Shown here piece after piece: positions 1 to 45,245 of a stretch of 64,000 bases of DNA. The translations under genes and the position numbers were made by a program. The DNA lies in contig VGGR01000005.1 in assembly GCA_016868585.1 (NCBI GenBank), positions 1 to 64,000 on the forward strand, in the 5' to 3' direction. The DNA is from Bacteroidota bacterium. GTDB lineage: Bacteria; Bacteroidota; Bacteroidia; Chitinophagales; Chitinophagaceae. Positions within the stretch are counted from its first letter, which is position 1; each line of letters starts with the position of its first letter. The notes under the pieces were generated by a model. The model ran no database searches. It saw nothing but the letters and a program-made list of their open reading frames with translations, and was not told the origin of the DNA.

Positions 1-77
1 AGCCTGCTCACTGCTTAAACTGAAATTTGGCATTAAGCATCAAATCAGCAATAATTCCAACTTAACTTTGCGCTCCA

Positions 78-159
78 GCCCAGGTGGCGAAATTGGTAGA
101 CGCACCGTCTTCAGGTGGCGGCGCCGCGAGGCGTGCTGGTTCGAATCCAGTCCTGGGCA
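78..159 (+). tRNA. tRNA-Leu (anticodon CAG)
   Basis: The acceptor stem GCCCAGG (78-84) pairs with CCTGGGC (152-158), with discriminator A at 159; CCA is not encoded. The anticodon stem CCGTC/GGCGG encloses the loop TTCAGGT, giving anticodon CAG. A long variable arm, the class II hallmark of tRNA-Leu, lies before the T arm GCTGGTTCGAATCCAGT. The DNA just 3' contains a partly degraded hairpin followed by a T-run, a likely terminator, which also forms the end of a serine recombinase reading frame on the other strand. Confidence 0.95.
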
Positions 160-233
160 CTTTATTGAACTGAAGCCGATTCTTTGATGAATCAACTTTT
201 TTATTTTTCGATGAATCGCCCGCCAACAAAGGG
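157..233 (+). repeat. 77-bp inverted repeat, copy A (tRNA end plus recombinase tail)
   Basis: This stretch matches the reverse complement of 35584-35660 without gaps, with six mismatches in 77 positions. It starts at the last bases of the tRNA acceptor arm and includes a hairpin with stem GCCGATTC that is imperfect here (GAATCAAC on the other arm), followed by TTTTTTATTTTT. It therefore serves as a probable tRNA terminator on the plus strand and as recombinase C-terminal codons on the minus strand. Confidence 0.85.
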
Positions 234-412
234 ATTGCTTCAAATAAACTATTCACTCTCGGAGTTCGAACTACTCCTTTTTGCTTGTGATACAGGATTC
301 CATCAGGGAATACCATCCTTTGAATGCGTTGCTTTTTCTCATATTCGGCTGAAACCCACGACTGGCTTAGGTTCTGCGTGTATGTCGTCAAAGAAAGTGG
401 ACTATTTAGCAT
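160..412 (-). pseudogene. 3' relic of a serine site-specific recombinase abutting tRNA-Leu
   Basis: The minus-strand frame has only the C-terminal tail of a Bacteroidota serine recombinase. It reads WVSAEYEKKQRIQRMVFPDG, then VRTPRVNSLFEAIPLL, and runs on as PRTGFEPA through the antisense strand of the tRNA. From memory of the family, this tail (Y/FE-KQ-LQ-LVFP-G ... VRT-RVNS-F) is characteristic. The N-terminal resolvase domain with the catalytic Ser and the zinc-ribbon domain are absent, because a stop lies upstream of 412 and GH88 follows directly. I read it as the remains of the integrase of an element inserted at the tRNA 3' end. Confidence 0.7.
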
Positions 413-440
413 AGTAATAAAAAAATGAAAGGAAAAGCTT

Positions 441-1658
441 TTAACCTTTCCTCGCCAGGTAACGCAGCATGGCTTCTACAAAATAGTAGTCTGCATAGGT
501 AAGTGCCACATCAACTTCTCCATTTAGCGGAAGTGCGCCCACACTGTGTTTGAGCAAGAATCCACCATTGGTGCCCTGCTTGGCAAGATAGGTTTCAGAG
601 GAAAGGGTATTGAGCATGGTTTCTGCAGATAGTAGATAGCTGGATGTTAAGCTACCTGAAACATATGCTGAAAGCTCAATGAGGGCGGAGGCCAGGATCG
701 CAGCAGCCGAAGCATCCCTGAATGTGTTTGGTATCTCCTTTGCATCAAAGTCCCAAAAAGGAATACCATCCTTGGGAAGGTGACCGTGATTGAGGACAAA
801 GGCAGCGATCTTGTTAGCCTGGTCTAAGTATCTTGTATCTCTGGTTAATCTGTACATCATGGTAAATCCGTACAATGCCCACGCTTGTCCTCGTGCCCAT
901 GCAGAGGTATCGTGCGCACCCTGCCATGTGGTCTTACGAAGGAGCTTGTTTTGAGCGAGACTATAATCAAGTACATGGTAAGCAGAATTGTTAGGACGAA
1001 ACTGTCTTTCTATGGTTGTATTGGCATGAGTTACCGCTATATCCCTAAAAAGTTGATCTCCTCCGTTATTGCTGACCCAAGTGAGTAACTCAAGGTTCAT
1101 CATATTATCAACGATTACTGCACAACTGAAATTCTTACTTGAATCCCAAGACTGGATGGATTGGATACCCGGACGAAAACGAGTAGCCAGGGACATTGCC
1201 GAAGTATCAATGGTTGCCTTGTAGGATGGATCGCCGGTGATGCGATAGGCATTTCCGAAAGAACAATACATCATGAACCCTAAATCGTGGTTGCTCTTGA
1301 AATGCTTTTCAGGTTCCATGAGCTTGAGTCTTTTTTCAGCAAGAGCGCGGATGGCAGGATCCTTGGTATATTCAAAAATGTACCAAAGTGTGCCTGGAAA
1401 GAAACCTGCACACCACCATTTGGTATTGCTGGTCACTAGTTTACCCGATTGTTCACTAAAGTTCTGTGGCATGCGCCCCTCTGGAACATTAGCATCAAGC
1501 AATTTGTACTGTTCTACAGCCAGCTGCATGTTGTTCCTGATTTTCACGATCAATGAGCTATCGGATTGTTGTGCCTGCAATGAAAAAAAAGAGAAAAGAA
1601 AAAAAGCAATTGATCCCAGTCTTGTTGTCATGATCTTTTTATTGGGGGTTGACTTCAA
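441..1658 (-). CDS. Unsaturated glucuronyl hydrolase, GH88 family
   Basis: A 405-residue secreted enzyme that removes the 4,5-unsaturated uronic acid left at the non-reducing end by polysaccharide lyases, releasing a product that becomes 4-deoxy-5-ketouronate. An N-terminal signal peptide ends near residue 30. The family acid pair is visible as Asp125 in HDLGF and Asp184 in VIVDNMMN, and the WARGQAW motif lies at 254-260. Its start overlaps the end of the upstream lyase gene by 20 bases, which indicates translational coupling; an internal ATG at codon 10 is a possible alternative. It is the last gene of the susC-susD-lyase-lyase-GH88 unit. GH105 is a related alternative, but the motifs and context favour GH88. 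Confidence 0.9.
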   Translation of the reverse strand: MKSTPNKKIMTTRLGSIAFFLFSFFSLQAQQSDSSLIVKIRNNMQLAVEQYKLLDANVPEGRMPQNFSEQSGKLVTSNTKWWCAGFFPGTLWYIFEYTKDPAIRALAEKRLKLMEPEKHFKSNHDLGFMMYCSFGNAYRITGDPSYKATIDTSAMSLATRFRPGIQSIQSWDSSKNFSCAVIVDNMMNLELLTWVSNNGGDQLFRDIAVTHANTTIERQFRPNNSAYHVLDYSLAQNKLLRKTTWQGAHDTSAWARGQAWALYGFTMMYRLTRDTRYLDQANKIAAFVLNHGHLPKDGIPFWDFDAKEIPNTFRDASAAAILASALIELSAYVSGSLTSSYLLSAETMLNTLSSETYLAKQGTNGGFLLKHSVGALPLNGEVDVALTYADYYFVEAMLRYLARKG

Positions 1659-3549
1659 TTGTATAATTTCCTATTGATGATGCCGTATGTTCGGTGAGTC
1701 TGATGCGGTAGATCGAGGACCCCCATACCCGCGAAAGTCGAATGTCATCGATCGCTATCCTATCCAGCGTTGCAGCAAAACGCTTCGGATCATAATGGAT
1801 GACCACTGTAGCGTCGCCGTTACTGAGTTTGATCTTACCTGGCTCCATCTCCTGCGGCGCCACCGCAACGAGCAGGTGATGCGCATTGGCCTGCTTACTG
1901 CTACCCAGTTGATAACGCGAGCCGATTCGCAAAATACCATTATCAAGCAATGTGTAAGTCAATTTCCAAGACAACACATCTGCTTCAATAGGATAGGCAC
2001 TGGCAATATCCATCTCGAGCTGGCTCTTACCAGGATCAAAACTGACTTCTCTGGCTTTGAATTCACGTCCGTCTTTTTGTGATACGCCGTTGATACGAGG
2101 CAGGTTGTGGTAATCACTCTGCATCGTCCATATGGTGTAGCGTTGCTCACTAAAGGTGAATTTGGTATAAGTTCCGACACCGGCATCGATTAAAAAAGGT
2201 TTATTCTTATAGTAATACACAAAACTGCCTGCATCATTGTGATTATGACTTTCCGCATTATATCCCCCTTTGGCCCCAAAAAAGACATCCCCCTTGCGCA
2301 AATAACAAAACTGAGTTTGTGGATACCAAGTAGCAGTTGCAGTGGGAAGCGCAGGAAGAACTGCAGCCATCTCATCATCGTGCACCAACTCTTCAAAAGT
2401 CCGGAAAAGGTCCCTTCTGGAAATATTCGATTCGGGTTCACGATGGCGCAGATAAGCAGCAAATGATTTCAATTCTTCACTCATCACGGCAACCCCATAT
2501 CGGTAAATGAGTCCCGCATCTCCGCCGCCTTTGGCAGATGCATCTGCAAAATTCACCACCCATCCGTTGCCGATATAGGAACGAGAAATGTACTCGCCCA
2601 TGCGGCAAATCTTTGGCTGATCGAAAATGCTGATCCGTCCGCCAGTGGCATAATGAAGCAATTGCAAGTAATCATACATTTTTCCTGCAGCATGTCCCCA
2701 ATAAGTAGGACCTTCTTCACAGGCACCATCCTCTTTGGTATAGTTGATAAACTTGTCAGTAGATACCATGGTCTTATGCACAGCCTCGGCCTGACGTAAC
2801 TCGTCCTTCTCCATCAATAAAAAACAGGTAAGTGCATTGAAATTGCACCAGGGATTCCAGTTGTTGACCATTTGGTCAGGACGATTGGAAAGGGCCATCC
2901 ACCAGAAATCATTGCGCTTTAGATAAGGATCAAGGATTCTTGATTTGACCTCTTTCCTGATCCTGGCAGCGACTACGGGATTAACTTTATCAAAACTGGG
3001 TGCCAGGAAATAATGCATCCAGGAAAGCATCGATCCCAGATCACCAGAAGAAAGATCAATGATTACCTCTTCAGTGTCGGGCAGAGATCGTCTGGACCGC
3101 TGATTCTGCAAGTGAGCCGACATCACCCAGGTGCTCATCTCGCAAGTATGCCAGATTCCGTTGATAAGCTGATCAATAAATCTCCCCTTTCCTTCGGCAA
3201 GCTCAGCCATGAACAAGAAAGTCAATGCAGTGTTGTTCTGTTCAAAGGGTGTTTCCATGATTACCCTGGAGCCGGTGCGCTCAAAAGCAAGGTAATCCGT
3301 TGCCTTGACCACCTTCCATTCGTAGTTGATGTACTTCTCGCCCAAGTTGATTAGTGGACCTGCCTTTTCTCCCAAGATTTTTTGCCAAGCTTCACGTTCA
3401 GTATAGGCTGGATAGTTGATCCATTGTGAAGTGGTAAGAAGGACCGAGGCTACGCCATTGCGATCGCTCTTGCTAGAAAGAAGGTTCAGCTGCGCAAACA
3501 ACAGCGTGGGAATGAAAAAAATCAACAGTAAACTGAAATTGAGTTTCAA
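1639..3549 (-). CDS. Heparinase II/III-family polysaccharide lyase
   Basis: A 636-residue secreted protein with a signal peptide (cleavage near residue 19-20). It has an alpha-helical toroid domain carrying NNWNPWCNFN at about 229-238 and GACEEGPTYWGHA at about 276-288, followed by a beta-sandwich domain with YNAESHNHNDAGSF near residue 430. This layout and these motifs are typical of heparinase II/III-like uronate lyases, which cleave glycosidic bonds next to uronic acids by beta-elimination. The substrate cannot be fixed from sequence; the neighbouring GH88 and glucuronate genes point to a glucuronate-containing chain. It lies between a second lyase and GH88 in the same transcription unit. 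Confidence 0.82.
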   Translation of the reverse strand: MKLNFSLLLIFFIPTLLFAQLNLLSSKSDRNGVASVLLTTSQWINYPAYTEREAWQKILGEKAGPLINLGEKYINYEWKVVKATDYLAFERTGSRVIMETPFEQNNTALTFLFMAELAEGKGRFIDQLINGIWHTCEMSTWVMSAHLQNQRSRRSLPDTEEVIIDLSSGDLGSMLSWMHYFLAPSFDKVNPVVAARIRKEVKSRILDPYLKRNDFWWMALSNRPDQMVNNWNPWCNFNALTCFLLMEKDELRQAEAVHKTMVSTDKFINYTKEDGACEEGPTYWGHAAGKMYDYLQLLHYATGGRISIFDQPKICRMGEYISRSYIGNGWVVNFADASAKGGGDAGLIYRYGVAVMSEELKSFAAYLRHREPESNISRRDLFRTFEELVHDDEMAAVLPALPTATATWYPQTQFCYLRKGDVFFGAKGGYNAESHNHNDAGSFVYYYKNKPFLIDAGVGTYTKFTFSEQRYTIWTMQSDYHNLPRINGVSQKDGREFKAREVSFDPGKSQLEMDIASAYPIEADVLSWKLTYTLLDNGILRIGSRYQLGSSKQANAHHLLVAVAPQEMEPGKIKLSNGDATVVIHYDPKRFAATLDRIAIDDIRLSRVWGSSIYRIRLTEHTASSIGNYTIEVNPQ

Positions 3550-3575
3550 GGCAAATGTTTCAGCTAAAGTAATTA

Positions 3576-4718
3576 TTATGGCCAGTACAGAAATCCCATC
3601 AGGCTCCTATTGTACCTAGTTGCTGAGGGGAGGATAGTTTGGATATACCCTGCAGACTCTGGGAATCCTAACACCAATTCCTCAAGTGCATAAATACTTG
3701 TAGCAGGATTGTAGGGTTTGTTGTAGTCTGGGCGAGTTCTATCTGGGGCATAGTTGGTGTTCACAAATTCAAGATGCACATTGTTGACAGGGTCAATGAG
3801 AAAGGGCTTCCAATAGTTCATGAGATCCTGCAGCGAAACATCGATATTGTTTTTCTTGGCTTTGAATGTGTTGTAGTTGGTTTGTCCTTCATATAATAAT
3901 TTGACACGCAGGATCCTTGCATAGAAAGCGAGATTATAAGCGTGATAGGCAAAAGCATCCCTACTAATCAGGTCCTCTGATTTTCCCCCAGCCTTGAGGT
4001 TTACATTGAGCAAGGTGGTATAGGCCGCATCAGTTTGTTCAACCAAAGTTCTGTCACCCAGCAGGTATCCAAAGTAATAAAGGAGGCTCAATCTGATAGT
4101 CTCCCAATTGTTGACACGAGGAGGGTAATTGCGGTAGGCAATGACTCTCCCACCAATCCAATTGTCGACCTTGGCACGGCTTGCAGCAGGCATCTTACTG
4201 CGCACAACAGAGTAAGCTTCATAGAAATCTAAATAACTGGTTTCATTTGGTGTATGCACCGGGTTGGCAACCTTGTTCCCGAAATCTGCCCAGGCTAGCA
4301 AGGTGTTTACTGTTTTGTCAAAATAAGGTTTGGCTTCAGCTGGGGATTGTTGAAAGGTATATAACCATCGGATCGCAAGCGATCTACATTCTCTCGCCTG
4401 GGTGGAGATACTGCTAAAGTTCTCGTTAGTAGCTTCAGCAAAAGGGGCGGCTGTTTTAGCAATAGCAGTGGCAGCTGGTTGCATGATAATGCTGGTGACG
4501 GCAGCCGCCAACACAGTGTTGTTTGTCGCTTCACTTCGTATATTTTGTAAGGTAACAGAGTCTATGATCAGGTTGACGGGAAAACTGTTGTCGATTGGTG
4601 AAGGGACAGGCTGTGGATTGGTATTGGGTGAATTAGTTTTTTTGTTACAGGCAAGCAACAGCTGCACAAGTATCAATAGAGAAAATATACGTTTAAAGGA
4701 AAATAATATGCTTCGCAA
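3576..4718 (-). CDS. Alginate-lyase-superfamily lipoprotein (possible PL38-like lyase)
   Basis: A 380-residue lipoprotein with the lipid-attachment Cys at residue 24 (LLLAC), followed by a Pro/Asn-rich linker. The rest looks like an (alpha/alpha) barrel of the alginate lyase superfamily: PPRVNNWETIRLSLL around 199-213 and RDAFAYHAYNLAFYA around 253-267 provide the Asn, His, Tyr and Arg cluster typical of these lyases. The family includes glucuronan and alginate lyases; I suggest a PL38-type glucuronan lyase on context only. It lies 26 bases upstream of the heparinase II/III-like gene and 32 bases downstream of susD, so it belongs to the same operon. Confidence 0.72.
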   Translation of the reverse strand: MRSILFSFKRIFSLLILVQLLLACNKKTNSPNTNPQPVPSPIDNSFPVNLIIDSVTLQNIRSEATNNTVLAAAVTSIIMQPAATAIAKTAAPFAEATNENFSSISTQARECRSLAIRWLYTFQQSPAEAKPYFDKTVNTLLAWADFGNKVANPVHTPNETSYLDFYEAYSVVRSKMPAASRAKVDNWIGGRVIAYRNYPPRVNNWETIRLSLLYYFGYLLGDRTLVEQTDAAYTTLLNVNLKAGGKSEDLISRDAFAYHAYNLAFYARILRVKLLYEGQTNYNTFKAKKNNIDVSLQDLMNYWKPFLIDPVNNVHLEFVNTNYAPDRTRPDYNKPYNPATSIYALEELVLGFPESAGYIQTILPSATRYNRSLMGFLYWP

Positions 4719-4750
4719 AATAGACTAATTTAAAGAAGTATCCTTACTAA

Positions 4751-6532
4751 TTAGTTAGGCCATCCGGGGTTCTGGGTCAAGTTGGGATTAAGTTGAATCT
4801 CTGCCTGCGGAATTGGCCAAGTATAGAAATGATCTCCTCCCCAGGTGTAATTGGCTATGTTCGCACCCCATACGCTGCGGAGACCATTGCTGAAATTAAA
4901 CTTCATGGTTTTCCAGGTTCCCCATCTCAGCTCATCGAAATAGTTGATGCCTTCATTGAGGAATTCTACACGGCGTTCATTACGTACGCGGTTCCGCATA
5001 TTGCCCTGACTGGAAACATAGGTGGGTAATGAAGGGTCGGTTGTTTGCAAAAGCGGCATGCCTACCCTAGCCCTGACCTGATTTACCTTGACGATGGCAC
5101 CAGGGATATCATTTTGTTCCACCAAGGCTTCTGCCCACATTAGCAAAACGTCAGCATATCGGATGATGGGAAAATCAATTGGACCGTAGGACCTGTTCAG
5201 CAGCTCTATGTTGCCTTCGTAGACAAATTTCCTGTGTAGATAATAGAATTCGGCCTGGGTGTCCGTTCTCAAATCACCATTTACAGCAGCCTCAGCCCTG
5301 AAAGGAAAGCGGCTTGTCACAGTGGAAGGGAGGTTGCTGAATACCCCGTTATAAGTGGAATAAGGGGTGATTACAGAAAGCGCCAAGCGAGGATCTCGGT
5401 TCTCAAATGCTCTCTTTATCCTGGCCTCATTGCCTGTGGACAGGTACTTGGTCATATCAGCACCGAGACTCTGTCTTGCTGCTCTTTCCGCTGCCGTCAT
5501 ATTGTCCCTGAGGAAATAGACCTGACGCGCCCTGGAATTCATAGTAGTGTAACCAGGAATAATATCGTCCCAGTTGAAGGCACTTCCATTAATGTTCTCA
5601 AACAAATCGACCCCTACGGGAGAAACGAGATAGGTATTCCAACAGGAACCAAAAGACGAACGGGTGCCGCAAAAGAATTGAGTTGTGGATCCCAAATTGG
5701 TGATGCCTATGTTCTGGAGCGTGAATATCATCTCATCGGACTGTTCATTCAGTTCCTTGAACAAAGTCCTAAAATCATTGAACAAGTTATACCCTGCAGA
5801 CTGTACATTGGCAAAATCAGCAGCTGCTTCAGACCATTTTCCCATAAAGAGGTGTGCCTTTCCCCGAAGTGCATAGGCAGCACCCTTGGTAACTCTACCA
5901 AAGTTGGCATTCCCTTTGGCATACTTCGCAGGGAGGTTGGGGTCAGCGATGGCATCACTGAGGTCTTTTAATATCACATTCCATACTTCTGTTTCAGTTG
6001 AACGTGGCCTGGTGGCATCAGTATATTTGAATGGTTCCAGGTAAATTGGAACGCCCTTCCATACCTGATTCAAGCGAAAATAAAAATATGCCCGCAGAAA
6101 TTTTGCTTCTGCGATCAGCCGTCCTTTTTTGACATCAGGTGAAGGTGACTTTTGGGGGATGTTGGCAATAGCATCATTCGCCCTGATTACACCCTCATAA
6201 AAATTCCTCCAGTTGTTGCTGAACAGGGCGTTACTGGGCGTAATGGTGCCAAGCAACATCGCGTCGGTACCGTCACGCTGCATACCTGTAGTAGCAAAGC
6301 GGTCGTATTGGTAGAGCTCCAAACCTGATGCACTTCCAGTATTCTGACCCAATCGCAGGGCCTCATAGATTGCATTCACACCCAGATCTGTAAGGTTATC
6401 TGTTGTCCACATATTTGAACTGCTGAGCTGGTCATATGGTGTGGTATCCAGCAGATCCTTTTGGCATCCGGCAATACCGAATGCAATAAGCGAGAGGTAT
6501 AACAGTATCTTTTTCATATTCATCGTTTTCAT
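4751..6532 (-). CDS. SusD/RagB-family nutrient-binding outer-membrane lipoprotein
   Basis: A 593-residue SusD-like protein that caps the SusC channel and binds oligosaccharides at the cell surface. The lipobox Cys lies in GIAGCQK near residue 23, after the hydrophobic signal. TPR-like N-terminal helices and the typical C-terminal RagB segment (RYADVLLMWAEALVEQN, then RRVEFLNEGINYFDELRWG) are visible. Three in-frame ATGs (6532, 6523, 6517) could start it; all keep the signal peptide. It follows susC by four bases, the standard tandem arrangement. Confidence 0.95.
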   Translation of the reverse strand: MKTMNMKKILLYLSLIAFGIAGCQKDLLDTTPYDQLSSSNMWTTDNLTDLGVNAIYEALRLGQNTGSASGLELYQYDRFATTGMQRDGTDAMLLGTITPSNALFSNNWRNFYEGVIRANDAIANIPQKSPSPDVKKGRLIAEAKFLRAYFYFRLNQVWKGVPIYLEPFKYTDATRPRSTETEVWNVILKDLSDAIADPNLPAKYAKGNANFGRVTKGAAYALRGKAHLFMGKWSEAAADFANVQSAGYNLFNDFRTLFKELNEQSDEMIFTLQNIGITNLGSTTQFFCGTRSSFGSCWNTYLVSPVGVDLFENINGSAFNWDDIIPGYTTMNSRARQVYFLRDNMTAAERAARQSLGADMTKYLSTGNEARIKRAFENRDPRLALSVITPYSTYNGVFSNLPSTVTSRFPFRAEAAVNGDLRTDTQAEFYYLHRKFVYEGNIELLNRSYGPIDFPIIRYADVLLMWAEALVEQNDIPGAIVKVNQVRARVGMPLLQTTDPSLPTYVSSQGNMRNRVRNERRVEFLNEGINYFDELRWGTWKTMKFNFSNGLRSVWGANIANYTWGGDHFYTWPIPQAEIQLNPNLTQNPGWPN

Positions 6533-6536
6533 TTGA

Positions 6537-9500
6537 TTAGAAAGTAAAGTTTACGCCAAGGGCAAACTGCTTCATGGTTGGGTAGCTGAATCCGGAACCA
6601 ATCTCTGGGTCCAGACCAGGAAATGCAGTTATCATAAACAAATTCTCGCCACTGAAAAAGACTCTTGCCTTCTGTAGGAAGAGCTTCTTCAACAAGTCCG
6701 GAGCAAGTGTATAACCCACTTGCAGGTTCCTTAGCTTCACATAGCTGGCATCATAAAGCCAAAAATCACTACTCAGTGCTGTGTTTTGTCCATCTGCAAC
6801 ACGCAGTCGTGTATACTTTCCGTTGATGTTATTGCGGCGATCATTGGGATCGGCATCATTATAGTAATAACGGTTGTTCGCAACATCCGCACTCACATGG
6901 TTACCCCAAATTACGGTAGGGCTGTTAAATCCGAGCTGGACCATGGAAAACTGGTGGCCTGCAGCCCCGCCTAGAATAAAGGAGAGATCGAACTGCTTCC
7001 AGCTGATATCGCCACTGAGTCCAAAAACGTATTTTGGTAGGGCAGAAGTTCCCGTGAATTGTCTATCGAAAGAGTTTCCGTAATCCCCATCACCATTCAA
7101 GTCAGCATAAATCAGATCACCATACCAGATGGCGTCCCTTCTGATGGAATTGCCAGGGCGAAGTTTGTATCCTGCAGTTAACATAGCCTGTGCCCATGCT
7201 AGGTCCTCAGCTGTACGTAGCATTCCGTCTTTTGGACCACCGTTGATGTTGACTGTTCCATCTGCGTTAAAGTATTTTCCGGATCCTCTATAGACCCTAT
7301 AGATATAATGTTCGTTAATCATTTTATCCTCAAGTGCTCCAGAATTGTATACGGCACTTAAGTTTGACTGATAAACATTATTTCCTGCGGCATCTGTGAC
7401 AAAGCCCTCAACAAGCTTTCCCCTGAACTTAGTTACTTTATTCTGCGTGAAGGCAAAGTTTCCAGTAACATTATACCTAATCTCTCCAAACTTTCCTCTA
7501 GTACCAAGCGTAATCTCAAAGCCCTGGTTTTGCACCGCAGCTAGGTTTACAATTGGAGCAGCAGCGATACCGGCAGTAATGGGAATAGCGATAGTGGAAA
7601 GAATGCCATCGGTGTTCCTTCTAAACAAGTCAAACTCCACGTTCAACTTATTGCCGAAGAGCGAAGCATCGAAACCAATATTCTTGATATTGGTCGACTC
7701 CCAACGCAATTCAGGATTTGCATAGCTGCCCACGGAGAGACCGGAAGCCTGCGCGTTATTGAAAGAGTAAAATCTGGGTGCATAGGTAGTCTGCCAGTCA
7801 TATAGCCCTGAAGCATACGCACCAAGCTCACCCCAAGAGGCACGAAGTTTGAGGTTGTTGAGCCATTTAATCTTCTTCATGAATTTTTCATCAGAGATCT
7901 TCCATCCTGCTGAAGCAGAAGGGAAATAACCATACCGGCTGGTGGGAGAGAAACGGGAAACACCGTCATAACGGAGATTTGCCTCCAGCAGGTACCTGCT
8001 TTTGTAACCATAATTCACCCTTCCAAATAGCGAACGAATTGCCCAATCACTTTCATTACCCGTAGTACTGATTGGATTCAACACGGTCGAAGGCACAAAA
8101 AGATTATAATCAATCATGCCTTGTTTAGTGAAGGCTGTGTTGTAAAAATTATAGTAAAGTTGGTTGTAACCGGCAAAAGCGGAGATATCATGGTCCTTGG
8201 CAATTGTAGTGCTGTAACGCAATACATTATCCAGTGTAACCTGATAGTTCTTATCGTAACTGTAGCTGGATGAAAGATTGGCGGGGATCTGCGGAAAACT
8301 CATCTGGGTGTTAGTAGCGAAGTTCCAACGGATGGCCGCATCGGGGTTGGTCCTGGTCCTATACTCATTCTGCCTTGCCTGGTAGTTGAAACGGGATTCA
8401 AAAGACAAACCCTTCATCAGGTTAATCGTAGCATAGAGCGTGGTGTTGAAGCGGGAGGTTTGGTCCTTGCCCAATCTGTTATTAAGAAAAGAAAATACGT
8501 TGTTGGCTTGCTGATTCTCTTCAGAAGTTTGTGCATATCCGTATTTGCCGTTGTACTTGGGAAAAATACCGGGTGTGGTTTGCCTTAGGAAGTTGAAGGC
8601 ATCGGTCACATTGCCCATGGCATCGTTCTGGAACATGGCAAAGGTTTGTGTGCCCACGGTCAGGAACTTGGTGACTCTTGATTCCAGGTTGGAACGGAAC
8701 TGAAAGCGCTGGCTCCAGGTGTTTTCAACAGTACCCTGATTTTTCAAATAGCCAACTGACAACAAGTAAGTAGTATTGTCAGATCCGCCATTAATGGAAA
8801 TATTGTGGTTCAGCACCATGCGAGAAGAGAAAAAAGCATTTGCCCAATCTGTATTGGGGTACGCCACATAGTTTGGAACACCATTTGGCGTCAACAGGTT
8901 GGGTATCTTGCTTGCTGAGTCCCAGGCAGCGATGGTCAGCGCACTGTACTTGGCCGCCTGCCCGATATTCGTGTGCGCTTCATTGGTAAGGCGCATATGT
9001 TCCGCGTAATTGGTCACCAGTCGAGGCATGTTCATGGGGCTAGTGGTAGAGTACTGCCCGGAATAGTTAACGGAAAGTTTATTGCGAGTGCCTTTTTTGG
9101 TTGTGATGAGCATGACGCCATTTCCAGCCTGTGAACCATAAATAGAAGCAGAGGCCGCATCTTTTAGCACTGTGACCGACTCTACATCCTGTGGATTCAC
9201 TGCGTCTAAGGAACCGATCACACCGTCAATGACTATAAGTGGCGCAGTTCCACTCAAGGTGCCCCGACCCCTTACCACAATAGATGCACCGTCTGAACCC
9301 GGCCGGCCTGAACCCTGCTGAACAGATACACCGGTAAGCAAACCTGAAAGCGAGGTTGAAAGATTGGTCAGTGGGCGGTCTTCGATGTCCTTTGCTGTGA
9401 TCATTGACACGGAACCGGTCAGGTTCACTTTCTTTTGTGTGGCATACCCTACAATAACTACTCCTTCCATGTTCACCCCGGTAGTTTCCAGGGCAATACG

Positions 9501-9779: not shown

Positions 9780-9823
9780 AAACAGTTGGTTTAATTTGAT
9801 TCCCTTAAGCTGAAGTAGAGACA

Positions 9824-9831
9824 CAAAAATA
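9824..9831 (-). promoter_or_regulatory. Possible -7 element of the susC promoter
   Basis: On the minus strand this reads TATTTTTG, matching the Bacteroidota -7 consensus TAnnTTTG, about 45 bases upstream of the susC ATG. I find no -33 TTG at the usual spacing, so support is moderate. Confidence 0.35.
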
Positions 9832-9839
9832 AATAAGTT

Positions 9840-11618: not shown

Positions 11619-11627
11619 AATTTCATT

Positions 11628-12986: not shown

Positions 12987-12991
12987 AATAG

Positions 12992-13633: not shown

Positions 13634-13637
13634 GATA

Positions 13638-16263: not shown

Positions 16264-16266
16264 GTT

Positions 16267-17082
16267 TTATACGCCGCTATAAGCAGAAAAGCCTCCGTCT
16301 ATAGTAATGGTTGCGCCGGTAACAAATTTTGAAGCATCGCTTAATAGCCATACTAACCCTCCTTCAAGTTCCTCAGGATTTCCCATTCTGTTAAATGGTG
16401 TTTGTTGAATAATTTTTTGTGCTCGCTGCGTAAATGCTCCTGCTTCGGTGATGAGTAATTGTCGGTTTTGTTCAGTTAAAAAGAACCCGGGTACCAAAGC
16501 GTTCATCCGAATACCATCACCATACCTATGCGCTAATTCAATGGCCATCCAGCGGGTAAAGGCCTCCACTCCTGCTTTAGCTAAACTATAACCAAGTACA
16601 CGAGTCAATCCTTGAGAGGCACTGACAGAAGAAATATTTACAATGCTGCCTTTTTTGGCTTGCGTCATTTGTCTTCCAAAAATCATGGAGGGTAATACAG
16701 TACCCATCAAATTCAGCTCATATACCTGTTGCAAAGCCGAAAAATTCAAATCAAACAAATTGACACTAGGATCTATTACCGCTCCCGGTAAATTTCCTCC
16801 TGCTGCATTCACTAATCCATCTATGGAACCAAACTTTTGAAGCACTTGCGTACAGGCGTTGGCTAACTCGTTCTCTTTTAATACATCTGCCTTGATAGCA
16901 ATAGCTTTGCCCCCGGCTATACATACGCCATGAGCCCTTGCTTCAGCTGTTTCCATATTTCTGCCTATTAACACTAACCGACCTCCAGCTTGCGCAATGG
17001 CATGGATAAATGAAGCGCCTAATACTCCAGTACTTCCAGTAACAATTATTGTTTTATTCAACAAACTAAACTGATCAGCCAT
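16267..17082 (-). CDS. uxuB: SDR-type fructuronate reductase / D-mannonate oxidoreductase
   Basis: About 271 residues of classical short-chain dehydrogenase. The cofactor loop is TGSTGVLGASF, the catalytic Ser lies in NISSVSAS and the YSLAK motif gives Tyr and Lys; the C-terminus ends in TIDGGFSAYSGV. Its function is inferred from position: it lies three bases upstream of uxuA, where the step between fructuronate (UxaC product) and mannonate (UxuA substrate) is needed. Some bacteria use this SDR form rather than the long-chain UxuB of E. coli. The ATG at 17082 is preferred to the TTG six bases earlier. Confidence 0.82.
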   Translation of the reverse strand: MADQFSLLNKTIIVTGSTGVLGASFIHAIAQAGGRLVLIGRNMETAEARAHGVCIAGGKAIAIKADVLKENELANACTQVLQKFGSIDGLVNAAGGNLPGAVIDPSVNLFDLNFSALQQVYELNLMGTVLPSMIFGRQMTQAKKGSIVNISSVSASQGLTRVLGYSLAKAGVEAFTRWMAIELAHRYGDGIRMNALVPGFFLTEQNRQLLITEAGAFTQRAQKIIQQTPFNRMGNPEELEGGLVWLLSDASKFVTGATITIDGGFSAYSGV

Positions 17083-17153
17083 AAGCAAATTTTTCTATTT
17101 GTTTGAATAAGATCTTGCGGCTAAATTACCTAATAAATCTTAGGATTCGTGTT

Positions 17154-18305
17154 TTAAAAGGGACTTATAGCGATCTGCAAAGGATTCGCAAGTTGCTGTT
17201 TTATGATTGTTAAATAGTTAAACCAGGCTGATGAGTCAGTTATCCTTTTTGCCTTATCCCAAGCTGCACCTGTGTAGTAAACAAGGGGAGTCTGTTTATT
17301 GGTTTTTAATAAAGCAAGGAAGTGGTTATTTGTAATTTTAATATCTGCAACTGGCTGTAAAAAAATGCAACCAACGCCAGTTGTGCCATGCTGTAAATGA
17401 CTAGGCTCCCAATAGCCCATCAGCCCCAACGACAAATCAAATAATACAGTGCCAGGATCCTTACGACGTGTAATTCCTATCGCCACTGGCAAAGTATCAA
17501 CCATGTCATAGGCATAAGCAGTTTCCACTCTACTTAACTGCATTCCTGCGTCAAGCGTAACCGTTTTTGTCATAGTCACTTTCTTTCCAGCTACATTCCA
17601 CGCATCATAGGTAAGTCGAAAAGTAGAACGCAGTGGTCCATTATCTAAAATCTCCCAGGTTCGGTAATTGGTCGGGTAATAAATAGAGTCGTCAATAATT
17701 GGAGCAATATTGCCAGCTCCTAAGCTTAATCCCACATGATAATAATCCATGCCATCGCCATGATCTATATGATACTCCCCTCTTTGATATCGATTGTTGA
17801 TGACCATTTGATCAGTTCTCTTTACCCAAACGTCAATTCCATTCGCATTTTCCTTTGTTCCTTCAAGCGCTTTTCCATACATACGAAATGCAATTCGGTC
17901 ATTTTCCCATGCAAAGTCATCTTTACGTTCCGGAACATACCGGCAAAATGTTTTAGTCATAAAGGGGGAATGGCTCCCCTTTTCTAGACGTATTACTTTT
18001 TTAGCGTGTGGAGGAACACTAATTTGTACAAGTAATTGTTGGGGTGATGGTTGGCCTCGAAATTCAATCTGGTAAGGTAATTCCTTTTGGGTTGAATCGT
18101 CGATTAGTCGAAAATCAAATTTCGCTACTAGTGAACTTTTTTCAACAACGGCTGTCCAAGGAATATTTATGACATATTCTTCGAAAAGAATTGGGGTTGA
18201 ATTAGAGATAAGTATAGCAAGCGAATTTTCTTTTTGTGCAAAAACACAACAATTAAAAAGTAAAATGAAGAATAGGGATAGATATAATTTTACTGGATTC
18301 AACAT
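17154..18305 (-). CDS. Secreted DUF4861 family protein
   Basis: About 383 residues with a signal peptide ending near CCVFAQ. The central segment CRYVPERKDDFAWENDRIAFRMYG followed by GIDVWVKR and YHIDHGDGMDYYHVG is characteristic of DUF4861, a beta-rich family found in Bacteroidota polysaccharide loci for pectin, ulvan and similar uronate polymers. Its biochemical activity is not known to me; a periplasmic uronyl hydrolase or carbohydrate-binding role is possible. The ATG at 18305 is preferred to an upstream TTG because it gives a clean signal peptide and avoids overlap with the transporter gene. Confidence 0.82.
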   Translation of the reverse strand: MLNPVKLYLSLFFILLFNCCVFAQKENSLAILISNSTPILFEEYVINIPWTAVVEKSSLVAKFDFRLIDDSTQKELPYQIEFRGQPSPQQLLVQISVPPHAKKVIRLEKGSHSPFMTKTFCRYVPERKDDFAWENDRIAFRMYGKALEGTKENANGIDVWVKRTDQMVINNRYQRGEYHIDHGDGMDYYHVGLSLGAGNIAPIIDDSIYYPTNYRTWEILDNGPLRSTFRLTYDAWNVAGKKVTMTKTVTLDAGMQLSRVETAYAYDMVDTLPVAIGITRRKDPGTVLFDLSLGLMGYWEPSHLQHGTTGVGCIFLQPVADIKITNNHFLALLKTNKQTPLVYYTGAAWDKAKRITDSSAWFNYLTIIKQQLANPLQIAISPF

Positions 18306-18315
18306 AAGCAACTCC

Positions 18316-19614
18316 TTAATAATCAATTTTTTTAAAAGAGGGTATTAACAAATGCATTAATAGCCAGGCTAACAAATAAGTTAATCCACATATTAAAAAC
18401 ATAATAAAATATCCTGTATTTTTCTCGCCTATCGAATGGTAATAATCGAATAAAACACCGGCACCTCTGGCTAATAATATTCCGCCGACAGCACCCGTCA
18501 TACCACCAATTCCTGTAACGGTTGCCGTAGCAGCCTTAGGAAACATATCACTAACAGTAGTAAATATATTTGAACTCCATGCCTGGTGCGAACCCATTGC
18601 ACAACCAATAATCATAACGGCAAGCCACATATTTACTCCTCCAAGATGTTGTGCAAATAATACAGGCAAAATACTGATTGCAAAAATGAGCATGGCCTTT
18701 TTACGTGCGCTGAAAATGGGAATACCACTTTTTACAAATCGCATAGGTAACCAGCCTCCAAAAATACTGCCTACAGTAGACAAGGTGTAAGCGACAGCAA
18801 GGGGGATAGATTTAGCAGAACCCGCAAGCCCATACTGTTTTTCCAAAAAATCAGGTAACCAGAAAAGATAAAACCACCAAACTGGATCAGTTAAAAACTT
18901 ACCAATCGCAAAAGCCCATGTCTGCTTGTATGTGAGCAATTTTTTCCACCGTAATTTGGAACCAGCACTTTCTTCCAGTTGCTCCTCATCTGGATCATTG
19001 ATAATAAAATTAAGTTCATTTTTAGATAGCTTACTATGTTTACGTGGAACATCGTATAGTATAAACCAAAAAATTAACCAGATAAAGCCTACAAGGCCCG
19101 TTAAAATAAACGCCCATTTCCAACCATATTGCTCAGCAATAACTGGAACTGATAAAGGAGCTACAATTGCCCCAATATTTGCACCAGAATTGAATACCCC
19201 AGTAGCAAAAGCCCTTTCCCTAAGCGGAAACCATTCAGCGACTGTTTTTATTGCTGCAGGAAAGTTCCCGGATTCAGTAGCACCTAAAGCTCCTCTTGCA
19301 ATAATAAATCCAAAAGTGTTAGTAACAAATCCATGGGCAATTGCAGCAATTGACCAAAGTGTAGTGGCAAGTGCATAACCAAGTTTGGTACCGACCTTAT
19401 CAATAAATCTTCCTGCTCCTAAAAATCCAATGGCATAACAAATCTGAAATGCAATGACAATATTTGCATAATCAGTTTCAGTCCAATTAAACTCTTTTGT
19501 TAACGGCGATTTCAATATGGAAATTACCGCTCGATCAAGATAATTTATAGTTGTAGCAAAAAAAACCAAACCACAAATGGTCCACCGGTACTTACCAACT
19601 ATTTGCTGCGTCAT
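18316..19614 (-). CDS. MFS hexuronate transporter (ExuT-like)
   Basis: A 432-residue inner-membrane protein with about 12 hydrophobic segments, of the anion:cation symporter branch of the major facilitator superfamily. The N-terminal NYLDRAVISILKSPLTKEF and the segment RGALGATESGNFPAAIKTVAEWFPLRERA are hallmarks of hexuronate/glucarate transporters. It would bring free glucuronate or unsaturated uronate monomers from the periplasm to UxaC and KduI. It lies four bases downstream of the KDG kinase gene. Confidence 0.9.
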   Translation of the reverse strand: MTQQIVGKYRWTICGLVFFATTINYLDRAVISILKSPLTKEFNWTETDYANIVIAFQICYAIGFLGAGRFIDKVGTKLGYALATTLWSIAAIAHGFVTNTFGFIIARGALGATESGNFPAAIKTVAEWFPLRERAFATGVFNSGANIGAIVAPLSVPVIAEQYGWKWAFILTGLVGFIWLIFWFILYDVPRKHSKLSKNELNFIINDPDEEQLEESAGSKLRWKKLLTYKQTWAFAIGKFLTDPVWWFYLFWLPDFLEKQYGLAGSAKSIPLAVAYTLSTVGSIFGGWLPMRFVKSGIPIFSARKKAMLIFAISILPVLFAQHLGGVNMWLAVMIIGCAMGSHQAWSSNIFTTVSDMFPKAATATVTGIGGMTGAVGGILLARGAGVLFDYYHSIGEKNTGYFIMFLICGLTYLLAWLLMHLLIPSFKKIDY

Positions 19615-19617
19615 AAA

Positions 19618-20640
19618 TTAATTTATAAATTGACTGGCAATATGCCGGATTGTTGAAGTGTTGTTATTGGTTGCGTCTCCTTTCTCGTGCAACTTTCCAA
19701 AGGCAGCAGCAGCGGCATAAGCAATTATAGTTGGCAATGAATGATTATTGATTATCCCATAAATCAATCCTGCCATAAAACAATCTCCACTTCCCACTTT
19801 ATCTACAATTTTGGCGGATCTAAAAAAAGGAGAAACAAATTGATCCTTTTTAGTATTTATAGTTGCATAATATTGAATTGCTCCTTGCTGGCTATCCAAT
19901 CGGAATGTGTTCGCCACATATTGACATCTTGGATAGTCCCTAAATAGGTTAGTAGCCGTAGCGGTAGCGCCTGCCAAGTATTCTTCTTGTGTAGGATATT
20001 CAGCCATATCAAGAGGTAAATTGATACCTAATAAAGCATGCGCAGACCATATATTACCCATCACTACATCACAATAATGTACCAAATCTGGCATCACTGC
20101 TATAGGACTTTTAGCATACTTCCATAAGAGCGCGCGGTAATTTAAATCAACAGAAATAGTAATATTTCGTTGTGAAGCAGCATGTAATGCTTCTTTACAT
20201 AATGCAGCAGCTGCTTCACTTAAAGCAGGCACTATGGCACTAAAATGAAACCAAGAAACATCTTCTAAAATCTCATTCCAGTTGAGCTGCCCAATTGGAA
20301 ACGTAGAAAAAGCTGAATCTTTTCGATCATATACGGTATGCTCACTTTTCATGTCAGCACCTGTACTTACATAATAGGTGCCTATACGCCCGTTTGTATA
20401 AACAATAGCAGAACTGTCAATTTCTTTTTGCGCTACATAAGCAACAATGTTTTTTGAGATAGCATTATCCGGTAGTGCCGTAAAATATTTGACGGGCACC
20501 CCCCACTTTGCGAGTGCAGTAGCAACATTTAATTCGGCACCTCCTACAAAAACAGGCATTTGATGTTGACCCAACCACTCCCCACTTGCAGAAGGTGAAA
20601 AGCGGAGCAATAGCTCACCAAAACATAAAACTTTTTTCAT
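19618..20640 (-). CDS. kdgK: 2-dehydro-3-deoxygluconate (KDG) kinase
   Basis: A PfkB-family kinase of 340 residues that phosphorylates KDG to KDPG. It starts MKKVLCFGELLLRFSP, has the substrate-contact GGAELNVATALAKWG segment and the C-terminal ATP/anion-hole motif VGSGDCFMAGLIYG with the catalytic Asp. Context fixes the substrate: both uronate branches encoded here end in KDG, and the aldolase acting on the product is in the same block. The ATG at 20640 is preferred to a TTG nine bases upstream. Confidence 0.92.
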   Translation of the reverse strand: MKKVLCFGELLLRFSPSASGEWLGQHQMPVFVGGAELNVATALAKWGVPVKYFTALPDNAISKNIVAYVAQKEIDSSAIVYTNGRIGTYYVSTGADMKSEHTVYDRKDSAFSTFPIGQLNWNEILEDVSWFHFSAIVPALSEAAAALCKEALHAASQRNITISVDLNYRALLWKYAKSPIAVMPDLVHYCDVVMGNIWSAHALLGINLPLDMAEYPTQEEYLAGATATATNLFRDYPRCQYVANTFRLDSQQGAIQYYATINTKKDQFVSPFFRSAKIVDKVGSGDCFMAGLIYGIINNHSLPTIIAYAAAAAFGKLHEKGDATNNNTSTIRHIASQFIN

Positions 20641-20658
20641 TTGCTGCAAAAAGCTACT

Positions 20659-21489
20659 TTATTTTAAACTAGCAATAGGCTGTGGATCCATATCCGTAAA
20701 CTCTTTATTTTCACCAGCCATAGCCCAAATAAATCCATAATGGGCTGTGCCTACGCCATAATGCATACTCCATGGTGCAGAGATAGCCGCTTCATGATTA
20801 GCAATAACCAAGTGACGCGTTTCTTGGGGCTCTCCCATAAAATGAAATACACGGTGGGCTTCGTCTACGTCAAAATAAAAATACACTTCCATTCGACGTG
20901 CATGTGTGTGTGGAGGAACTGAATTCCACACGCTCCCAGCTTCTACTGTGGTCAACCCCATTACCAGTTGGCAACTTTGAATACCATCCTGATGAACATA
21001 TTTATAAATAGTTCGCTCATTAGCAGTAGCCCTATCTCCTAATTTGATTGGAGATGCTTCAGCCTTGGTCATTTTACGATTCGGATAGCTTTTATGCGCT
21101 GGTGTGGATAGCATATAAAATTGCGCAGGAGTAGTAGCTTCCAAACTTGCAAAAGTAACTTGCTGGGTTCCTTTTGATAAATAAACACATTCCAATTTTT
21201 CAACCTCATAGGATTCTCCATCTGCGGTCACTATACCTTTTCCACCTACATTAATAATTCCGATCTCTCTTCGTTCTAAAAAATAATTAGCCTTTAATTC
21301 CCCTTGGCTAAGTAAGGAAAGTGGTTCACTAGTAGGAACAGCTCCACCAATAATTACTCGATCATAATGTGAATAAACTAATTGAATTTGTCCGTTTTTC
21401 ATTAACTGTTGAACTAAAAAATTGTCACGCAATTGTTGCGTGTTCATTTGACACGTTTCTTTTGGACTGTTTTGATATCGTACTTGCAT
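20659..21489 (-). CDS. kduI: 5-keto-4-deoxyuronate isomerase
   Basis: A 276-residue cupin that isomerises 4-deoxy-L-threo-5-hexosulose uronate to 3-deoxy-D-glycero-2,5-hexodiulosonate. The four zinc ligands are visible: His194 and His196 in PPHTHARRMEVYF, Glu201 in the same segment and His243 in SMHYGVGTAHYG, at nearly the same positions as in E. coli KduI. It uses the product of GH88 and passes it to KduD, whose gene is 25 bases upstream. Confidence 0.96.
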   Translation of the reverse strand: MQVRYQNSPKETCQMNTQQLRDNFLVQQLMKNGQIQLVYSHYDRVIIGGAVPTSEPLSLLSQGELKANYFLERREIGIINVGGKGIVTADGESYEVEKLECVYLSKGTQQVTFASLEATTPAQFYMLSTPAHKSYPNRKMTKAEASPIKLGDRATANERTIYKYVHQDGIQSCQLVMGLTTVEAGSVWNSVPPHTHARRMEVYFYFDVDEAHRVFHFMGEPQETRHLVIANHEAAISAPWSMHYGVGTAHYGFIWAMAGENKEFTDMDPQPIASLK

Positions 21490-21514
21490 GAAATTTATTT
21501 TTTGGGTTAATTAA

Positions 21515-22276
21515 TTATCTACTCATCCACCCGCCGTCAACAGTAATAATGCTACCGCATATATAATCAGAGGCCGGGGAAGCCAAAAACACAAAGGCTC
21601 CGGTAAGATCAGCCGTGTTACCCCATCTTCCAGCAGGAATTCTTCCTAAGATAGCTTTATTTCGCTCTTCATCCGCACGTAACAGTGCGGTATTATCCGT
21701 AATAATATAGCCGGGTGCTATGCCATTTACATTGACTCCTTTTGAAGACCACTCGTTGGCAAACGCCTTTAAAAGCGATGCAACAGCACCTTTACTAGCG
21801 GCATAACCGGGCACATTAACTCCCCCTTGAAAGCTCAAAAGAGAACAAGTAAAAATAATTTTACCCCCTCCGTTCTTGATCATTTGTTGACCAATTTCAC
21901 GTGTAATTATAAATTGTGTAGTTAAATTAATATCGATGATTGCATCCCAGTACTCATCCGGGTGTTCAGCGGCGGGTTTACGCATAATATGACCTGCATT
22001 ATTAACTAAAATATCAATGCGCGAATGATTTGCTTTAACCTTATGAAGAAAATTATACACAGATTGACGGTCTGAAAAATCAGCTTGATAAGCATAAAAC
22101 TTTTTTCCAGTAGCTTCAATAGCTTTTGCAACCTCACTTTCGGTTGGGGGCAAAGAATTAGATACGCCAATAATATCTGCTCCAGCATGGGCCAATGCTA
22201 TGGCCACTTCCATCCCAATACCACGACTACAACCTGTAACCAAAGCTATTTTATTATCCACTCTAAAATTATTCAT
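21515..22276 (-). CDS. kduD: 2-deoxy-D-gluconate 3-dehydrogenase / DKII reductase
   Basis: A 253-residue short-chain dehydrogenase reducing 2,5-diketo-3-deoxygluconate to KDG. It has the TGCSRGIGMEVAIALAHAG cofactor loop, the NNAG motif in VNNAGHIMRKP, a YAASKGA catalytic pair and the C-terminal GSIITVDGGWMSR typical of KduD. It is the first gene of the long minus-strand uronate unit. I see no clear TAnnTTTG box in the 300 bases upstream. Confidence 0.93.
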   Translation of the reverse strand: MNNFRVDNKIALVTGCSRGIGMEVAIALAHAGADIIGVSNSLPPTESEVAKAIEATGKKFYAYQADFSDRQSVYNFLHKVKANHSRIDILVNNAGHIMRKPAAEHPDEYWDAIIDINLTTQFIITREIGQQMIKNGGGKIIFTCSLLSFQGGVNVPGYAASKGAVASLLKAFANEWSSKGVNVNGIAPGYIITDNTALLRADEERNKAILGRIPAGRWGNTADLTGAFVFLASPASDYICGSIITVDGGWMSR

Positions 22277-22584
22277 GCCCCTAAAATTTAGATAAGATTA
22301 TTTTATAATTTTTGAAAACTTCTAACAGTTTTTTTATGATGTTGCACTTGTCTCATATTTCAGACACTACTATTTGTAGAAATCGGGCTTGACTGAAATG
22401 TCCTGCAACATCTTCCCCCGATATGCATCAAGTTACATTCAGCCATTCGTCCCGGAAGCACCACTAATTGATTCAGTGAATGGATTACCTGTTGGTTTCC
22501 CGGGGCGGGAATAGTCTAAGGTAACATTATTTTAATACGCCAGCGATCAAAATTCTTGTTGATAAATGCTGCATCTATGTGCAC
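22277..22584. other. Non-coding region upstream of kduD
   Basis: About 300 bases with no plausible coding frame. It should contain the promoter of the kduD-to-eda unit, but no consensus -7 box is evident on the minus strand. A short GC-rich patch with TTTCCCGGGGCGGGAA near 22495 is the only notable local feature. Confidence 0.4.
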
Positions 22585-22618
22585 AAAGCCCCCAACACGA
22601 AGTGTTGAGGGCTTTTTT
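22585..22618 (+). terminator. Strong intrinsic terminator with no gene upstream
   Basis: The hairpin arms AGCCCCCAACAC and GTGTTGAGGGCT flank a GAA loop and are followed by TTTTT. It is oriented for plus-strand transcripts, yet no plus-strand gene precedes it; kduD reads away from it and the next lipoprotein starts downstream. It may have served a gene now lost. Confidence 0.8.
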
Positions 22619-22630
22619 AATTGGATGCGT

Positions 22631-22693
22631 GCAAAGCTTGCTTTGCTAAGCAGACAAGTACAAAGCCCGTCACGCCGAAGGCGTGTGGGGCAT
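22631..22693. repeat. Two consecutive hairpins
   Basis: GCAAAGC-TT-GCTTTGC (22631-22646) and CACGCC-GAA-GGCGTG (22671-22685), the second extended by outer arms GCCC/GGGC across a two-base internal loop. With the preceding terminator they form three hairpins within about 105 bases, ending some 45 bases before the tRNA 3'-end copy. Confidence 0.65.
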
Positions 22694-22737
22694 TGGGTAA
22701 GAGCAGCTTTTTGCGATGTGTGAGCACAGCGAACACC

Positions 22738-22754
22738 ATCCAGTCCTGGGCACT
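22738..22754 (+). repeat. Exact 17-bp copy of the tRNA-Leu 3' end (candidate att site)
   Basis: ATCCAGTCCTGGGCACT is identical to the T-arm and acceptor end of the tRNA-Leu at 145-161, in the same orientation. The following bases (CATTAAACAGCAG) also resemble the DNA after the tRNA (TTATTGAACTGAAG). No complete tRNA is present here. Confidence 0.75.
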
Positions 22755-22880
22755 CATTAAACAGCAGTCCCTAAAAAGACGAAAACAATTACTTTGAAAA
22801 ATATTACATTTAAACAACGAAACTCTCGACAACTAAACTGTCTACTTTCTTTGACAACATATAAATCTAATATTTAATCT

Positions 22881-36148: not shown

Positions 36149-36151
36149 TAG

Positions 36152-45238: not shown

Positions 45239-45245
45239 GGCTAAC

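Follow-up and report, generated by a model that had tools for sequence, protein, structure and literature searches.

Integration at tRNA genes has been ascribed to tyrosine integrases (Islander; accessible part of PMC4383910), and the accessible part of PMC12884075, which counts islands at tRNA genes, does not separate the two integrase classes. In the open-access literature, no paper was found on a serine integrase at tRNA-Leu, or on tRNA genomic islands of Sediminibacterium. Here, we describe a tRNA-Leu(CAG) gene in a Chitinophagaceae genome (1.77 Mb, 99 % complete, 20 contigs) that is overlapped by the tail of a large serine recombinase gene and followed by a polyuronide locus. The gene lies near the start of a 102-kb contig (C5), and the first 64 kb of this contig, referred to as the window, were compared with the 42 genomes of the genus (own genome included) and with a wider sample of 396 genomes of the order. 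We consider it likely that the 3' end of tRNA-Leu(CAG) serves as the attB of a large serine integrase family, and that an island of about 41 kb was built there stepwise, with the polyuronide segment nearest the tRNA and an integrase gene truncated by an insertion sequence (IS). That the tRNA-Leu island was built by serine integration is well supported.

Several described systems share properties with this locus. The LI/A118 integrase (accessible part of PMC3783163) is alike in the Resolvase and Recombinase domains, seen here in an intact homologue, in the symmetric attP arms, in a 5-bp displacement and in a short shared core. However, the proposed attB here is a tRNA 3' end. An additive flexible genomic island of Ca. 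Methylopumilus was recognised from repeated copies of the 20 bp that end tRNA-Lys (accessible part of PMC10872708), and tRNA-end repeats are likewise strewn through the variable region beside the tRNA in the window. In contrast to that island, the recombinase family and its arms were identified here, and several junctions carry element arms and not plain tRNA-end repeats. Tycheposons, too, are islands anchored at a tRNA, near which they have a recombinase, and their cargo is variable, but those described carry the tyrosine recombinase xerD (same source) whereas a serine recombinase is found here. As in the classical tRNA islands of tyrosine integrases, an intact tRNA gene has foreign DNA at its 3' end. 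However, the displaced tRNA fragment does not appear to be the island end, and the enzyme is unrelated, being a serine recombinase that abuts the tRNA. The cargo, with a SusC/SusD pair, lyases, GH88 and uronate catabolism genes, is like a Bacteroidota polysaccharide utilisation locus.

The serine recombinases of this genus mostly end on tRNA genes. A search for PF07508 (Recombinase), which is independent of the tRNA-derived tail in the window, recovered 26 genes in 16 of the genus genomes (26 loci, L247-L272). The recombinase 3' end is overlapped by an antisense tRNA in 15 of the 26, or 15 of the 21 that are informative, namely those with a stop and >60 bases beyond it. The tRNAs concerned are Arg (five), Leu (four), and one each of Ser, Lys, Cys, Pro, Asn and Gln. 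When database genomes were scanned with the intact recombinase, all 13 loci found (one the query's own record and two apparently from genomes already in the genus set) had an antisense tRNA at the 3' end, tRNA-Leu in 12 and tRNA-Arg in one. More distant homologues were found in Sediminibacterium and Flaviaesturariibacter. The intact homologue, a protein of 562 aa in G045, has both the Resolvase (PF00239) and Recombinase (PF07508) domains; a search of it for a Pfam zinc ribbon with E-values up to 0.1 gave no match, only a weak coiled-coil-like one. The tail in the window has no Pfam match itself, and its minus-strand frame (62-412) includes 108 stop-free residues that are 90 % identical to the recombinase frame that remains open up to the end of contig C4 in the same genome.

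The arms of the element could be recognized in several genomes. The left arm in the window recurs beside two more tRNA-Leu genes in the same genome, one where C4 ends (L038 19494-20000) and one at the start of C18 (L040 1-114; 28 bp of the arm), and this arm also follows tRNA-Leu in G013, G015, G045 and G046. The right-arm motif, TTCGAACTCNGTCCAGCAAAGG-GC-AC, was found at 13 sites in 10 of the 42 genus genomes (≤2 mismatches) and its reversed pattern at none; the copy at 41140-41165 is the only site in the window with the right-arm signature of the family. The attP arms are pseudo-palindromic, as is characteristic of large serine integrase elements, one typed left arm being symmetric to one right arm (12 of 20 bases identical, P=3.5e-4 from shuffles). 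Downstream of the right arms is the spacer that otherwise flanks tRNA-Leu (described below), a left arm, or another terminator or flank. In three relatives, the spacer is preceded by TTCGAACTNNGNCCAGNAAAGG-GC-AC instead of the tRNA, and in G041 and G044 the right arm directly abuts a left arm, as it would in attP or in tandem elements.

At all 13 right arms, the outer 14 bases match the tRNA end best at a displacement of exactly 5 bp (9-13 of the 14); these sites are not independent of the form of the pattern, which was built from such sites, but the pattern itself did not include the comparison with the tRNA. The displacements tested were 0-8, or 0-5 in the case of one arm that lies at a contig start, and the summed matches were 69, 47, 13, 8, 68, 146, 53, 15 and 20, respectively, the last three over 12 sites. 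Among 20,000 shuffles of one arm, 12 reached 11 of 14 matches at any displacement. For the LI integrase, the zinc-domain motif of attB is reported to lie 5 bp nearer the centre than that of attP (accessible part of PMC3783163).

The junctions, the arms, the 5-bp displacement and the truncation of the integrase gene are direct observations, as are the tRNA-proximal spacers in relatives that lack the lyase of the polyuronide locus. The reaction that we infer is one in which an element circle with attP (right arm TTCGAACTCNGTCCAGCAAAGG-GC-AC left arm TTTATTGAACTGAAGCC) would recombine with the tRNA end (TTCGAATCCAGTCCTGG-GC-AC), crossing over at the central GC. The GC at 157-158 would be the crossover dinucleotide, and the junctions read in relatives break at GC-AC with the exception of one G041 right arm that ends in GC-AG. 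The tRNA would be kept whole, with the bases 5' of the GC untouched and the left arm supplying AC and a new terminator, and the integrase gene would come to end antisense inside the tRNA. Repeated insertions, both at the tRNA and at tRNA-end copies downstream of it, would then build an island of about 41 kb, and truncation by the IS near 380 would leave this integrase copy unable to act alone. The order of these events, and entry of the polyuronide segment by this route rather than through a later rearrangement, are likewise inferred.

The 17-mer at the tRNA end, ATCCAGTCCTGGGCACT, is found on the same strand at 145-161 and at 22738-22754. The initial annotation, made from the sequence of the window alone, had reported both the intact tRNA-Leu and this exact copy, and both were confirmed. 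The genome-wide search for the 17-mer that it proposed found four exact copies in 1.77 Mb (about 0.0002 expected by chance with uniform bases; none for the reversed control), at the ends of the two tRNA-Leu(CAG) genes (C4 and C5), at the end of tRNA-Leu(GAG) (C18) and at 22738. In several relatives, the tRNA end is followed by a spacer of about 170 bp with a terminator hairpin, of which three sequence types were distinguished by eye. In some of them the spacer is closed by a tRNA-end copy, which is exact in G006, G012 and G052, and altered in G005, G056 and others. In other genomes, comparable copies start 80-159 bp downstream of tRNA-Leu genes, the distance mostly being 149-159 bp. Among the loci retrieved, some of them by searching for the tRNA end, and with up to three mismatches allowed, each sequence counted once and contexts with less than 250 bp downstream dropped, a copy was present within 420 bp downstream in 10 of 49 tRNA-Leu(CAG/GAG) contexts, versus 1 of 46 for other tRNAs, the single case being a tRNA-Leu-like gene called Arg. 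Upstream copies were present in 1 of 49 and 0 of 46, respectively, and the sole upstream case is due to a tandem tRNA pair that is also among the 10. In G012, a recombinase end occupies the second tRNA-end copy, and this copy therefore looks usable as an attachment site. A tRNA-Leu-like gene in G005:C4 (L127 8690-8774), with a tRNA-Leu 3' end, was called tRNA-Arg(GCG), and its anticodon region is apparently altered.

The spacer that starts at 22583 in the window directly follows the tRNA end (GG-GC-AC) in G013, G055 and G022:C9, the last of which stops 13 bp into the spacer. When window positions 1-160 and 22585-22754 were joined, the joined flanks aligned continuously in G055 (89 %), G013 (92 %) and G054:C97 (94 %, from joined position 106), and also at tRNA-Leu(GAG) of G010 (91 %). 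The heparinase-type lyase of the locus has no match in G055, G013, G054 or G010. Orthology of the left flank with that of the window was demonstrated for G022:C9 (85 %) and G010:C7 (87 %) only. The tRNA-end copy at 22738-22754 is best read as a B-type att scar that is internal to the island and is not its edge.

The recombinase gene was cut by an IS end. The initial annotation correctly recognized a serine recombinase tail but described it as decayed; homology stops near 378, where the IS end starts (cut at about 379-409), and as the remaining tail has no stops it is cut rather than decayed. The terminal motif of the IS was found at 10 sites in 4 of the 42 genomes (≤1 mismatch), against 3 sites in 3 genomes for the reversed control; this genome has it at 5 places. 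As CA follows it at 8 of the 10 sites, the end was placed at 379 and not at 381. A full copy of the IS in G045 encodes an rve integrase core, and the remnant is also found elsewhere in this genome and in relatives. The block at 22752-22861, of which C11 carries a copy, was at one stage considered as an element arm, and was dropped as it is the end of the IS transposase gene. Since the C4 recombinase frame is open to the contig end, intact recombinase copies may exist in the population.

The two IS remnants in the window represent the 3' (transposase-end) side of the same IS and face outward, with ends near 380 and 22862, and could indicate that the IS carried in or enclosed the polyuronide segment, either as a composite transposon or via recombination between IS copies, which the presence of the motif at five places in this genome would favour. 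However, there is no target duplication, as the outer three bases are GTG and TAA for ends at 381 and 22861 or GCG and AAT for ends at 379 and 22863. In addition, the locus is separated from the right IS end by the tRNA spacer (22583-22751), and the right remnant breaks off at GCAC. We consider this origin unlikely.

The initial annotation had interpreted 78-22754 as a single integrative element of 22.6 kb (161-22754), with the 17-mer as the direct repeat at the far end and a recombinase that decayed later. This would account for an exact, same-strand repeat that is specific to tRNA-Leu ends in this genome, for the recombinase tail and for the functional coherence of the enclosed locus. The repeat length is also permissible, because streptococcal integrative and conjugative elements with a single serine integrase are reported to have direct repeats of 2-21 bp (accessible part of PMC4701971), and for this reason the objection that a serine integrase would not leave a repeat as long as 17 bp was abandoned. 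However, the bases that precede the 17-mer from 22583 onward are the old downstream spacer of the tRNA and directly follow tRNA-Leu in genomes without the lyase, and hence these bases are not part of an incoming element. Tandem occurrence of a tRNA end and a similar copy 80-159 bp after it in relatives also speaks against an element end at this position. Similarity of the bases after 22754 to the tRNA flank had been taken as further support, but these bases are the 3' end of the IS transposase gene and the IS terminal repeat, and the likeness must therefore be coincidental. The comparison with relatives that was suggested to reveal an empty site instead found the tRNA followed directly by the sequence that starts here at 22583. 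Thus, entry of DNA at tRNA-Leu, most likely via the serine recombinase abutting it, is retained, but the stretch is not one element bounded by the 17-mer, which closes the old flank of the tRNA, and we regard the single-element interpretation as improbable.

The features of the window are listed in Table 1. Based on the stepwise serine integration proposed above, the best reading is an accreted island extending from 159 to 41161, with internal junctions at 22581, 22750 and 35659 and the polyuronide locus as the tRNA-proximal segment. At the 22750 junction, the tRNA-end copy is followed by the IS remnant. The terminator joined to the inverted left arm (35584-35660) resembles those that follow tRNA-Leu in G006 and G012, and the junction at 35659 joins halves that would not be joined by an insertion in the usual orientation, which could be explained if the palindromic GC allows inversion. 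The outer boundary was placed at 41.16 kb because of the arm motif and two relatives, G010 and G022. In G010:C49, homology resumes at 41186, 20 bp past the right arm, and is preceded by different DNA; G010 is the most similar genome at the right flank (88-91 %). G022:C7 matches the window from 42176, and there the chromosome from 42.2 kb lies 8.8 kb after tRNA-Leu(CAG).

Table 1. Features of the window, ordered by position; assignments to arms, junctions and segments are those of the proposed island
Feature	Position	Strand	Basis or remark
C-terminal tail of large serine recombinase, N-terminal part missing	62-378	-	Frame runs antisense into tRNA
tRNA-Leu(CAG)	78-160	+	ARAGORN; single tRNA called in window
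Left arm (P' half-site), AC-TTTATTGAACTGAAGCCGATTC, with terminator-like hairpin	159-190	-	Comparison
IS terminal end truncating recombinase gene	379-409	-	Terminal motif
Polyuronide locus part 1: GH88, heparinase II/III-type lyase, alginate-lyase-type protein, SusD, SusC	441-9824	-	Pfam; 45.9 % GC
DUF1080 (3-keto-disaccharide hydrolase) and Gfo/Idh/MocA oxidoreductase pair	10233-12986	+	Pfam; 37.0 % GC
Polyuronide locus part 2	12992-22276	-	Pfam; 39.5 % GC
First inner junction, TATGT-GC-AC then tRNA-flank spacer	22581-22584	+	Relatives G013, G055, G022:C9
tRNA-flank spacer ('beta unit') with terminator hairpin, closing in 17-bp tRNA-end copy (22738-22754)	22583-22754	+	Relatives
Remnant of 3' end of IS transposase gene and IS terminal repeat	22750-22863	+	Reads ALIKQQSLKRRKQLL*KILHLNNETLDN
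Second segment	22881-35512		Pfam
Inverted left arm joined at GTGCAC to tRNA-flank-type terminator (P'-B' junction)	35584-35660	+	95 % identical to C4 arm over 77 bp
Third segment: DUF6526, small hypothetical, carboxyltransferase/LamB_YcsF/Nramp-like genes, ABM monooxygenase	35720-41085		Pfam
Right arm (P half-site) TTCGAACTCCGTCCGGAAAAGG-GC-AC, proposed attR of island	41140-41165	+	Pattern search
Chromosomal flank: acid phosphatase, BNR/sortilin-like protein, next gene	41182-46010	-	Pfam; relatives

A number of observations weigh against the proposed island. The right arm at 41140 departs from the consensus, with CCGGAAAAGG for CCAGCAAAGG, and when the tRNA end is not displaced it matches the right arm at only 7 of 17 positions (P=0.096). 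The left side of the 22581 junction resembles neither arm (6 of 17 and 7 of 17 matches, P=0.33 and 0.07, not significant), which leaves the right end of the polyuronide segment itself unexplained; interpretation of this side as a degenerate half-site was rejected as the similarity was not significant. Among the loci of relatives compared, none has a continuous match to an empty 41-kb site, with 1-160 joined to 41166 onward, and in G022 and G043 the shared chromosomal flank is separated from the right arm by other genes. Six of the 21 informative recombinases have no tRNA at the scored 3' end, though in one of them a tRNA-Ala is found beyond an early stop. Finally, the window starts at a contig end. 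Starting at the first base of C5, it and C4 are identical over exactly 127 bp before they diverge, as would be expected for a branch of a k=127 assembly graph. As they share these bases and then differ, the left flank of C5 is probably common to two versions, one with the open recombinase frame and one with the IS-cut frame, that derive from two strains or two loci. PF07508 has no match in this assembly, which is consistent with loss of recombinase copies from the bin.

The window could also be an assembly or population artefact, with C5 a strain consensus that was mis-joined at the short repeats at 22581 or 22750, given that the contig opens in the overlap with C4, that GCAC-ended repeats are found at several contig ends and that a similar two-version pattern is seen in G022 (C7 and C9 agree over 74 bp from the first base of C7), but C5 continues for 102 kb, the shared sequences of 17 bp and 4 bp are far shorter than the 127-bp overlap, and junctions of the same kind are present in several independent assemblies, and there is little likelihood that this is the explanation.

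The content between the tRNA and the 17-mer copy is, as described in the initial annotation, a polyuronide locus and a DUF1080/Gfo-Idh pair. Part 2 of the locus includes genes for KDPG aldolase, UxaC, UxuA, an SDR, DUF4861, MFS, a PfkB kinase, a KduI family protein and a further SDR. We take this last SDR to be KduD-like from its position. Adjacent SusC and SusD genes together with carbohydrate-active enzymes identify a polysaccharide utilisation locus. Relative to the 42.4 % GC of the window from 41182 to 64000, the locus may be composite because its GC content steps from 45.9 % to 37.0-39.5 % near 10 kb.

Matches to the heparinase-type lyase were found in 4 of the 42 genus genomes, namely this genome, G014 (53 %), G003 (59 %, partial) and G022 (weak), so that only two of the 41 others have a strong homologue, and no conserved gene order was found in the 20 kb of G014 or the 10.7 kb of G003 that were inspected. 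In the order sample, 68 of the 396 genomes have a match (own genome included), and the best from other genera is 54 % identical. Gene order was examined in four of these. In G135, which belongs to another genus, SusC, SusD, the lyase and GH88 are in the same order with strong matches (58, 68, 53 and 43 %, respectively). SusC/SusD matches were weak in G249 and G375, GH88 was not found in G266, and the alginate-lyase-type gene was found in none of the four. No tRNA was found in the 40 kb retrieved from each of G135, G249, G375 and G266. Because the SusC/SusD/lyase/GH88 order recurs in G135 without a nearby tRNA, the polyuronide module looks like cargo and not machinery. Such a recurrence had been proposed as evidence against a tRNA-linked island, and it applies to half of the locus. 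The lyase/Sus module itself is ordinary and only its position is unusual.

The outer segments have other contents. Genes in the second segment are for a lipoprotein-like protein (no Pfam match), PorP/SprF, a PKD/CHU_C protein, an S15 peptidase, an amidase, DinB, an alpha/beta hydrolase and a hypothetical protein. The DUF6526/hypothetical pair of the third segment also occurs in G022, close to tRNA-Leu(GAG), and in G005, close to the tRNA-Leu-like gene. The carboxyltransferase A/B and C/D domains, LamB_YcsF and the Nramp-like transporter, all inside the island, are encoded between 37252 and 40756, presumably as a 5-oxoproline or related catabolic unit. Segments with further contents were seen in relatives. 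In G041:C121 (L198 12000-17200), segments between arms downstream of tRNA-Leu encode surface-like proteins with N-terminal motifs that are similar by eye. In G022:C7 (L045 107-3372), a 3.3-kb segment between tRNA-Leu and a right arm has no recombinase, and includes genes for a metallo-beta-lactamase-fold protein, a sigma-70 family factor and a DUF4097 protein.

A broader interpretation can be offered tentatively. A branch of the large serine integrases in Chitinophagaceae might use tRNA 3' ends (Leu, Arg, Ser, Lys, Cys, Pro, Asn and Gln) as its specialised targets, and at tRNA-Leu might build arrays like the cassette arrays of integrons, in which integrase-free gene segments accumulate one after another downstream of the tRNA, with a common P half-site at the end of each. 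The tRNA-end copies would then be spare attachment sites, and the palindromic GC would permit inverted insertion, as at 35659. We view this as a possibility that is less probable than not.

The findings have consequences for the analysis of similar loci. A genus in which 15 of 21 informative recombinases end on an antisense tRNA is a natural test set for site choice by serine integrases, with several tRNA specificities represented. Caution is needed in delimiting tRNA islands, as the copy of the tRNA end that is most conspicuous may be a scar inside the island. For bacteria with small genomes, the island suggests a route by which metabolic loci, for example a polyuronide pathway, may be added without loss of the tRNA.

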